A stretch of DNA of 54,263 bases from positions 1 to 54,263 of the forward strand of contig JAAELU010000447.1 of the NCBI GenBank assembly GCA_024226255.1, written 5' to 3'. Position 1 is the stretch's first letter. Every line of letters starts with the position of its first letter. The notes beneath the pieces are model-generated. The model saw only the letters and a program-made list of their open reading frames with translations. It ran no database searches and was not told where the DNA came from. The position numbers were made by a program, and so were the translations under genes. Source of the stretch: a bacterium. Lineage in GTDB: Bacteria; Actinomycetota; Acidimicrobiia; Spongiisociales; UBA5794. Below are positions 36,057-38,332 of this stretch, piece after piece.

Positions 36057-37667
36057 CTAGGGCGAAACGTTGATCACAAACGCAACGACGACCTGGCGGG
36101 CGACAGAGGGCGGCGAGTCAGAGACGAAGAGCATCGCTGCAGTCTCGTTCGATCCGTCGGCCGGTTTGTAGGCCGTACCGAGGGCGGTTGTGTTGCCGGA
36201 CGTCCTGTCTTCGTTGGTGCCGACCACGAAGCCATTCTGCGGATTGTAGAAACCCGTCACACCGGCGGTTGCGGCAGCAATGACCATGTCGAAGTTCGAG
36301 GTGCCGACGGAGCCGACGGTGATGGGGTTCGGCGTATCCCCGGCGTTGGACGCCGTGACAGACGCCCCCGTGGGTGTCGTTTGATCGACGTTCTCCACGA
36401 TGACGTGCGAGTACAGCGGTGCGTCGGGCGTGCCGGTCCAGACGGGCACCAACGTCGCGTCGGTGGCGGCGGCAATTCCTGCTTCATCGAGAATCCAGAA
36501 CTCGATCAGAGCCGTCTTGCTGCCTGAGTTCAGCTGTTCGGATGCGACGTAGGTGAGTGCTTGGCCGCCATAGGACACCGACGTCAGCGTCGGCGTGGAG
36601 CCTCCGCTCTCTTCGTTGCTAGCTGCGAACACAAGCAATCGGTTCGAGCCGGCCGACGCCGGGTGTGAGAGCCCGGTCATCCACGAACCGGCCAGGTCGA
36701 CTTTGGCCACGGTGGCGGTGACTTCGCTGCTGTCGGTGCTCTCCCAGCCCAGGTAGTAGGCCCGCACAACGTAGTAGTAGGTGCCAGGAGCAGGGCTATC
36801 GACATAGGTGGTTGTGGTCCGTGGCGTGATCTGGGCAATCTGGCTGTACGGCCCACCCGAAGAGGTCGCACGCAGCACCCGGTGGCCGGTGGCGTAGGTG
36901 TCCGTGGTTGCCGCCCATTCGATGGTGATTGAAGCTCCACCAGAAGCGCTGATCTTGCCGGGCGCAGTGAGAACGTCTCCCGTCCACGAGTTGCCGACGC
37001 TATCAGTGCCGACAGCGAAGGCAGCATGAGAGCCGGCGCCGGTGACGACGGAGGCGACAAGAAGCATCGTGACCAGTCCGGCCGCGTTGGAGCGGCTCGG
37101 TTGCAGGATCCGGGCCGATTCAGGAGCCGTCTCCGGTTCCTCGACTCGCCACGGGTCGAACTTGTCGAGCAGCGCCCATCGCGACGTCCCCAACGCAGCC
37201 ACCAGCGCCAGACCCGCCAAGGCGAGCTTCAGCCAATCGCCGTTATGAACCCACTCGTATGGCTTGCCGACAAAGGGCACCAAGATGCGTCCCACGCCGG
37301 ATATCTGACCCGGCTGAACCGAATCGGAGTCGATGCGTGGGTTGCGATCCCCCCGAGTTACGTAGTTGCCGGATGGCTCCACATCGACGATGCGATGAGT
37401 GACCTGTCCTTGCCGCGAGGGGCTATCGAATACGATGACCGTGCCTGGGCCCAATTGAAGGCCATCGTGTGGGCTGGCGACCACCACGTCGCCCGCCTTG
37501 ACCCCGGGCTCCATCGAGCCTGACACCACTGCCACAGAGGACCAACCCAGCACAAGCGGTACCACCGCGGCCCAGATGATGAGACAAAGCAGCGCCGTGA
37601 TTCCCACAAGCGAGAAGAGCCCGATACCGAATCGGGCCCTCTCGGTCTTGCCACTGCTGGCGGCCAC
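36057..37667 (-). CDS. SipW-type signal peptidase I fused to a secreted FnIII-containing substrate-like region
   Basis: 536 residues. Residues 1-165 are an S26B (SipW/archaeal-ER type) signal peptidase: helix 18-40, nucleophile Ser51 in VVSGSMEP, His91 in VTHRIVDV replacing the bacterial lysine, then the GDRNPRID box. A second helix (147-162) is followed by a third (196-212) that resembles a SipW-type signal peptide, ending AAFAVGTDSVGNSWTG. After that come a fibronectin-III-like domain (about 240-325) and a beta-rich domain with SYGGQALTYV and VENVDQT. GTG start. It lies 26 bp after the TasA-like gene and is probably co-transcribed. Confidence 0.85.
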   Translation of the reverse strand: MAASSGKTERARFGIGLFSLVGITALLCLIIWAAVVPLVLGWSSVAVVSGSMEPGVKAGDVVVASPHDGLQLGPGTVIVFDSPSRQGQVTHRIVDVEPSGNYVTRGDRNPRIDSDSVQPGQISGVGRILVPFVGKPYEWVHNGDWLKLALAGLALVAALGTSRWALLDKFDPWRVEEPETAPESARILQPSRSNAAGLVTMLLVASVVTGAGSHAAFAVGTDSVGNSWTGDVLTAPGKISASGGASITIEWAATTDTYATGHRVLRATSSGGPYSQIAQITPRTTTTYVDSPAPGTYYYVVRAYYLGWESTDSSEVTATVAKVDLAGSWMTGLSHPASAGSNRLLVFAASNEESGGSTPTLTSVSYGGQALTYVASEQLNSGSKTALIEFWILDEAGIAAATDATLVPVWTGTPDAPLYSHVIVENVDQTTPTGASVTASNAGDTPNPITVGSVGTSNFDMVIAAATAGVTGFYNPQNGFVVGTNEDRTSGNTTALGTAYKPADGSNETAAMLFVSDSPPSVARQVVVAFVINVSP

Positions 37668-37693
37668 GGCGCTGGCGTTCCGGCTCGTTCGCT

Positions 37694-38332
37694 CTAGTTC
37701 TGGATCTCCCAGGTGAATGTGAGAGCTGTGACCGACTCGCCCTGCTCGGCGTTCGGTGCTGCCGAGTCGAGTTCCACGGTGATCCGATAGGTCTTCGACT
37801 CAGGCGTCGCCGATGGATCCCACACTCCAGCGCCCGTGGCATAACTTGTGTGGGCGGTATCGAAGTCCGAAAGCGTGCCGCCCGACTCGATGCTGTTGTC
37901 CGGAGAGAAACCGCCACAGTTACCAAATGAACCGCCGGTGCCCTCCTCGATCGTGAGGTTGAGGTAGGTGTCGAAGTCACCGGAGTCCGTGTATCCGCCC
38001 GAATAGAGCTTCACACCCGAGGGATCAGGAACGCTGCCCTGATAGGTCACGACGATGCAGTCGGTGACAGACTCTCCCGGCTCCATATCGACCACCGTGA
38101 ACATGGTTGATCCCGAGTCATCATCGACAAGATCGACGTCTCCCGCGGTAAACGAGTTCGCCGTGTTGTCCGTCGTGTCATTGAACACGGCCACTGAACT
38201 GCTGATCACGGCAAGGCTGACGACGAGCATCGCCGCCGTTACACCCATCACGCGGAACATTGGTGCCCGGCTCTGCCTCCGTGCCCGACGGCGCATCAAG
38301 AAGATACCGTCCAATCCAGTTGTTTCTCTCAT
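37694..38332 (-). CDS. TasA/CalY-like protein with SipW-dependent signal peptide
   Basis: 212 residues. A basic N-terminus (RRRARRQSR) and a helix (about 28-46) end SSSVAVFNDTTDNTANSFTAG, the pattern of SipW-dependent secretion signals. The mature region is acidic and beta-rich (GDVDLVDDDSGS, ESKTYRITVELD), like camelysin/TasA-type fibre or matrix proteins. ATG with GGGGAG at 7 nt. The SipW-type peptidase fusion directly downstream is the expected processing partner. Confidence 0.82.
   Translation of the reverse strand: MRETTGLDGIFLMRRRARRQSRAPMFRVMGVTAAMLVVSLAVISSSVAVFNDTTDNTANSFTAGDVDLVDDDSGSTMFTVVDMEPGESVTDCIVVTYQGSVPDPSGVKLYSGGYTDSGDFDTYLNLTIEEGTGGSFGNCGGFSPDNSIESGGTLSDFDTAHTSYATGAGVWDPSATPESKTYRITVELDSAAPNAEQGESVTALTFTWEIQN

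Follow-up and report, generated by a model that had tools for sequence, protein, structure and literature searches.

A SipW-type signal peptidase fused to a predicted SipW-type substrate and encoded beside a TasA-like gene in the class Acidimicrobiia

Signal peptidases are usually regarded as stand-alone enzymes with many clients. SipW, TasA and their three-gene operon are well known: the tapA-sipW-tasA operon of Bacillus subtilis unites the genes for a peptidase of SipW type, for a TasA/camelysin-like protein and for a further SipW-type substrate (PMC9674648, PMC10151520), and the tapA and sipW codons overlap (PMC10151520). SipW cuts TasA, whose P2' residue is Phe, while LepB copes poorly with an aromatic P2' (PMC10269814). 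The sipW-tasA/calY locus of B. cereus likewise places SipW beside camelysin-type fibre proteins and an accessory SipW-processed protein, CapP, with all genes separate (PMC13082335).

The locus described here lies in a window of 54,263 nucleotides, the whole stretch of DNA that was analysed, and its features are collected in Table 1. As in B. subtilis, a peptidase of SipW type is encoded together with a TasA/camelysin-like protein and with a putative second SipW-type substrate, and a stop/start overlap is common to both systems, between tapA and sipW in B. subtilis and between sipW and the substrate gene in split relatives of the present locus. In contrast to the B. subtilis operon, SipW and the putative second substrate form a single chain, the latter being built of FnIII plus beta or CBM modules, with no TapA family among the Pfam and NCBIfam matches of the fusion; the gene order is also different, the host is an actinobacterium and the system is known from genes, not fibres. 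TapA and the fused passenger are comparable in operon position only. The contrast with B. cereus is of the same kind, since in the present locus the accessory protein belongs to the peptidase chain itself. A search covering the open full-text literature yielded no description of a fusion between a signal peptidase and its own kind of substrate.

Table 1. Features of the fusion gene and of its upstream neighbour (window coordinates; the arrow marks the predicted cut)
Feature	Position	Strand	Evidence
TasA/camelysin-like protein, 212 aa	37694..38332	(-)	PF12389, TIGR04088; weak fold matches
SipW-substrate fusion gene, 536 aa	36057..37667	(-)	single open frame; same-genus homologue of like architecture
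N-terminal membrane helix 1, residues 7-39	37551..37649	(-)	AlphaFold2 helix 7-39; hydropathy
ER-type (Ser-His) signal peptidase catalytic domain, residues 41-133	37269..37547	(-)	TIGR02228 and SEC11 matches; pLDDT about 93
Catalytic Ser51 codon, SGSM box	37515..37517	(-)	invariant in relatives; aligned with SEC11 box
Catalytic His91 codon, THR box	37395..37397	(-)	invariant in relatives
Membrane helix 2, residues 145-169	37161..37235	(-)	AlphaFold2 helix 145-169
Predicted cytosolic linker, residues 170-192, n-region of the internal signal	37092..37160	(-)	low pLDDT; comparison with G002
Helix 3, predicted internal SipW-type signal peptide, about residues 193-213	37029..37091	(-)	scoring-matrix peak; homology to N-terminal signal of G029
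Predicted cleavage site S213-H214-A215↓A216-F217	37017..37031	(-)	A215 invariant in 14 fusions; Phe at P2'
Post-cleavage segment AFAVGTDSVGNSWTGDVLTAP, resembling a TasA-like N-terminal (donor) strand	36960..37022	(-)	motif match with VFNDTTDNTANSFTAGDVDL of the upstream gene
FnIII domain, about residues 238-321	36705..36956	(-)	3mpc_A match to 241-321, E 5e-6
C-terminal beta-rich domain, residues 325-536	36060..36695	(-)	58% identity to G012 frame

A sequence-only reading of this DNA had proposed that peptidase and secreted part form one polypeptide, and this holds: the fusion gene is a single frame without interruption, starting at a GTG codon and encoding an intact chain of ~56 kDa, and the arrangement is repeated in a genome of the same genus (G002). 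Residues 17-136 match TIGR02228 (E 5.7e-20; 71.8 bits, above the curated cut-off of 51.85), and human SEC11C and SEC11A are the best PDB relatives of the peptidase, by sequence and by model fold. The domain shares its Ser-His boxes, N-terminal membrane anchor and fold with the TIGR02228/SEC11 ER-type signal peptidases, but those with solved structures have no such extension, whereas the fusion continues into a predicted internal signal and a secreted domain. The proposed catalytic pair, Ser51 and His91, is invariant in 14/14 aligned fusions and 29/29 aligned SipW relatives, and together with D107 and D113 it is kept across the aligned relatives, giving a Ser-His pair (not Ser-Lys) and an acidic box. 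Scored against the Bacillus SipW equivalog model NF046067 the fusion reaches 51 bits, below the cut-off of 190; judged by its sequence, the peptidase is a SipW-type enzyme and not the Bacillus equivalog. The AlphaFold2 model is confident for the catalytic domain and places a third helix at residues 193-208 after the two membrane helices, but the part of the prediction that would bear on the proposed self-cleavage is weak: in helix 3 and the ectodomain pLDDT stays at or below about 50, too low for a docking of helix 3 at the active site to be judged. Two other features within the gene were rejected, namely an ARAGORN call of tRNA-Pro(GGG) at 37143-37227 (-), which has no Rfam tRNA match even at E 0.1, and a separate second protein from an internal start, for which the interval between linker and cleavage site of the window gene offers a sole candidate, ATG codon 201, lying within helix 3 and without a clear ribosome site.

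The ectodomain has the FnIII plus beta-domain composition that had been suggested. A Pfam search with residues 325-536 gave no match; G012 has an independent frame, on a contig that also carries SipW, with 58% identity to this part. Passengers of other fusions vary (CBM96, LamG, RCC1, CBM2, FnIII, DUF7483), and such modules suggest adhesion or matrix binding.

Much of the argument turns on helix 3, which had been likened to a SipW-cleaved signal. An HMMER profile of SipW signals found many fusions but missed that of the window under default bias correction, and we therefore used an ungapped scoring matrix, controlled by shuffling and trained on 55 SipW-type signals, all taken from separate genes in the neighbourhood, with the fusions left out of training. 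Its peak in the window fusion falls in helix 3 (27.5 bits, at SHA↓AFAVGTDSVGNSWTGD, against -6.8 at the second-best position), a score equalled in 0/200 local block shuffles, and helix 3 is the best-scoring place in all 22 fusions scanned with the matrix, if weakly in three of them (L050, 8.8 bits; L071, 3.9; L090, 4.5). The median for 75 unfused peptidases is -15.8 bits, and the highest score among 12 fusions of another type is 9.3. The helix fits the signal pattern of its class-mates, a hydrophobic helix followed by AxA↓x[FY] and Nx[FW]xxx, with the usual small residues at P1 and P3. When 14 fusions were aligned without regard to the motif, A215 (P1) was the sole invariant column outside the peptidase; P2' is aromatic in 27/30 fusions, a count in which the site was registered partly by a matrix trained on A-x-[FY]. 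The cognate_SipW model TIGR04088 gave no match to the fusion protein at E up to 1.

The upstream gene, taken earlier for a TasA/CalY-like protein with the same style of signal, ends 26 bp ahead of the GTG of the fusion, and that reading is supported. Its product passes the gathering threshold of the Pfam camelysin family PF12389 (27.4 bits against 22.5), and TIGR04088 scores 18 against a cut-off of 19 on the protein and 21.9, above the cut-off, in the genome search. A second SipW-type candidate of the genome, C435 with 17.5 bits, was read as an unrelated FG-GAP-repeat protein. The upstream product carries a SipW-type signal, SVA↓VFNDTTDNTANSFTAGDVDL, with the site predicted at A48↓V49-F50. The model of this protein is beta-rich with weak fold matches to FimA and to archaeal bundling pili (7ueg), the best at E 3.3e-3 and TM about 0.4; the pili have been described as a TasA-like system (PMC9674648). 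The post-cleavage strands of passenger and TasA-like protein resemble each other, with a mean BLOSUM score of 29 against -8 for shuffled strands; such likeness is expected of SipW substrates, and a donor-strand partnership is possible. Pairing within a locus was marginally better than across loci (p 0.024 without kinship correction), which we do not rely on. Most fusions of the window's clade have a TasA-like gene ahead of them.

The window is the whole of one contig in a 778-contig draft genome (90.7% completeness), which lends some substance to the suspicion, raised with the original proposal, that a sequencing or assembly error had joined two genes. The same-genus genome has the same gene pair on a 108-kb contig (the contig also read as L141, of an uncultured Acidimicrobiaceae MAG), and its fusion is 67% identical to that of the window over residues 2-318, through the FnIII domain; in the linker identity is 50%, with a single gap of one codon that keeps the frame. 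Because the fusion is repeated there with an in-frame one-codon gap, an assembly join is excluded, and the 23 such fusions read in the class argue the same way; we give an artefact practically no weight. Beyond FnIII the two proteins are wholly unlike, a beta domain standing against a CBM96/DNRLRE module. No SipW other than the fusion was found in the draft genome, which also has two LepB-type peptidase genes and one camelysin-like gene. SipW processing of the TasA-like protein would therefore need the fusion, acting in trans. Several other genomes with fusions likewise have a single TIGR02228 match.

Relatives of the passenger also occur as separate genes. The homologue of window residues 207-322 in G029 (56% identity) is a gene of its own that begins with that helix and directly follows sipW, and six relatives (G009, G020, G026, G027, G044 and G072) have the passenger of a 674-aa fusion (G019) as an independent gene behind sipW. 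All 8 split operons that were measured have an overlap between the stop of sipW and the start of the second SipW-type substrate (ATGA in five; 1, 8 and 14 bp in the rest), and the fusion is thus one step past coupled translation. Together with the conserved P1 Ala, the split-operon homologues strongly, if indirectly, favour cleavage after helix 3. A SipW-type secreted family of 400-500 aa (RVTTYQI...YWLQSIDFG; no Pfam match in the one member scanned) was also seen either after sipW or fused to it (L045, L043, L041, L037, L034, L038, L047), and at L063/L070 a SipW-type substrate gene lies between two sipW genes, one plain and one a substrate fusion.

The search for further examples that had been advised revealed a recurrent architecture and not a single oddity. 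A TIGR02228 search over 395 genomes of the class Acidimicrobiia led to about 110 loci that were read, among them 23 SipW-signal-ectodomain fusions in 22 genomes and 10 families (L110 being included on its 21.6-bit site, and L049 being truncated at the edge of its contig). At least 6 more occur in other classes of the phylum, Streptomyces spiroverticillatus has one with CBM2, and one was found in a Candidatus Andersenbacteria (CPR) genome, while most of 80 named SipW relatives are unfused, including nearly all from Bacillota. A quick peptidase tree places the window fusion within a clade of 33 rows (support 99), where 16 fused, 15 single and 2 other proteins are interleaved. The fused/single label changes 14 times on the whole tree, with at least 4 changes forced by strongly supported branches; fusion and fission are therefore recurrent, the link having been made and undone repeatedly among related bacteria as far as the tree shows, although the order of change cannot be read from it.

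We propose, and consider fairly probable, that helix 3 is a signal peptide cut by the fusion itself or by sister molecules, that the ectodomain is thereby freed, and that the TasA-like protein is processed in trans; the enzyme would probably release its own tail and process the fibre protein encoded next door. In topological terms, helices 1 and 2 would hold the Ser51/His91 site at the outer membrane face, the linker would bring the chain back into the cytosol, and helix 3 would re-enter the membrane, oriented after two preceding helices like a signal peptide, with A215↓A216 predicted on the outer face. Cutting of SHA↓AF by the fused peptidase, on itself or on a neighbouring copy, would free the FnIII and beta domains as an adhesin- or matrix-type protein and leave a normal SipW in the membrane, which would process the upstream TasA-like fibre protein too. 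The freed protein would probably fill the position that the second SipW substrate has in TasA operons (in B. subtilis, TapA), and a pairing of its newly exposed N-terminal strand with the TasA-like subunit is possible. It is possible, though doubtful, that the locus goes further and is a self-starting fibre device, in which each SipW supplies one starter or tip adhesin by a cut in cis, with the strand AFAVGTDSVGNSWTGDVL donor-paired to TasA-like subunits; if so, peptidase, starter and fibre subunit would meet at one membrane site in a fixed ratio.

Helix 3 might instead remain uncut, so that the ectodomain is anchored by three helices as a surface adhesin and the peptidase processes the TasA-like protein in trans only. 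Cleavage is itself deduced indirectly, and other SipW fusions of the class (DUF5305-like, kinase-like, cytosolic) have no SipW-type site and are probably not self-cut, the DUF5305-like ones having the ectodomain placed between two membrane helices. We nevertheless regard an uncut helix as unlikely, given a P1 Ala invariant in 14 diverse fusions, a matrix peak at this very helix, and homologues that use the same helix as an N-terminal signal peptide. Were it cut by a LepB-type peptidase, with the fusion serving co-expression only, the two LepB-type genes and the ordinary small residues at P1 and P3 would be accounted for, but the aromatic residue found at P2' in nearly all fusions is one that LepB handles poorly, and the post-cleavage motif fits SipW substrates; this seems to us quite improbable. 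It is more improbable still that the C-terminal part is mainly regulatory, helix 3 occupying or tethering the active site until self-cleavage or the start of fibre assembly: a single chain would necessarily keep helix 3 near the peptidase, but the passengers are mutually unrelated and made of adhesin or carbohydrate-binding modules, and close relatives work with a free SipW.

Release of the ectodomain by the fused or a sister peptidase is thus the reading we prefer. An ER-type signal peptidase has repeatedly become one polypeptide with a predicted client beside a TasA-like gene, in a phylum whose TasA-type matrices have hardly been studied. The fusion suggests that SipW and the second substrate act as a unit, as the tapA/sipW overlap of B. 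subtilis had hinted, and the natural pairs of fused and split loci are material for asking whether SipW helps to start fibres. It may also offer a self-releasing secretion module with exchangeable passengers.

Other fusions resemble that of the window in that the SipW domain is extended at its C terminus (DUF5305-like, kinase-like, sortase B), although in those scored the third helix does not show a cleavage motif of SipW type. In a second recurrent type, SipW is followed by a helix, an ectodomain that we take to be DUF5305-like, and a C-terminal helix (L132, L104, L126, L119, L114, L122, L129 and L102, and also L263, L268 and L269); where scored, these show no SipW-type cleavage motif. Two genomes of one family (L078 and L108) join SipW to a multi-helix histidine-kinase-like protein extending about 950 aa past the catalytic Ser, and in an Agathobacter MAG (L219) SipW is followed in frame by an apparent class B sortase, as read by eye.
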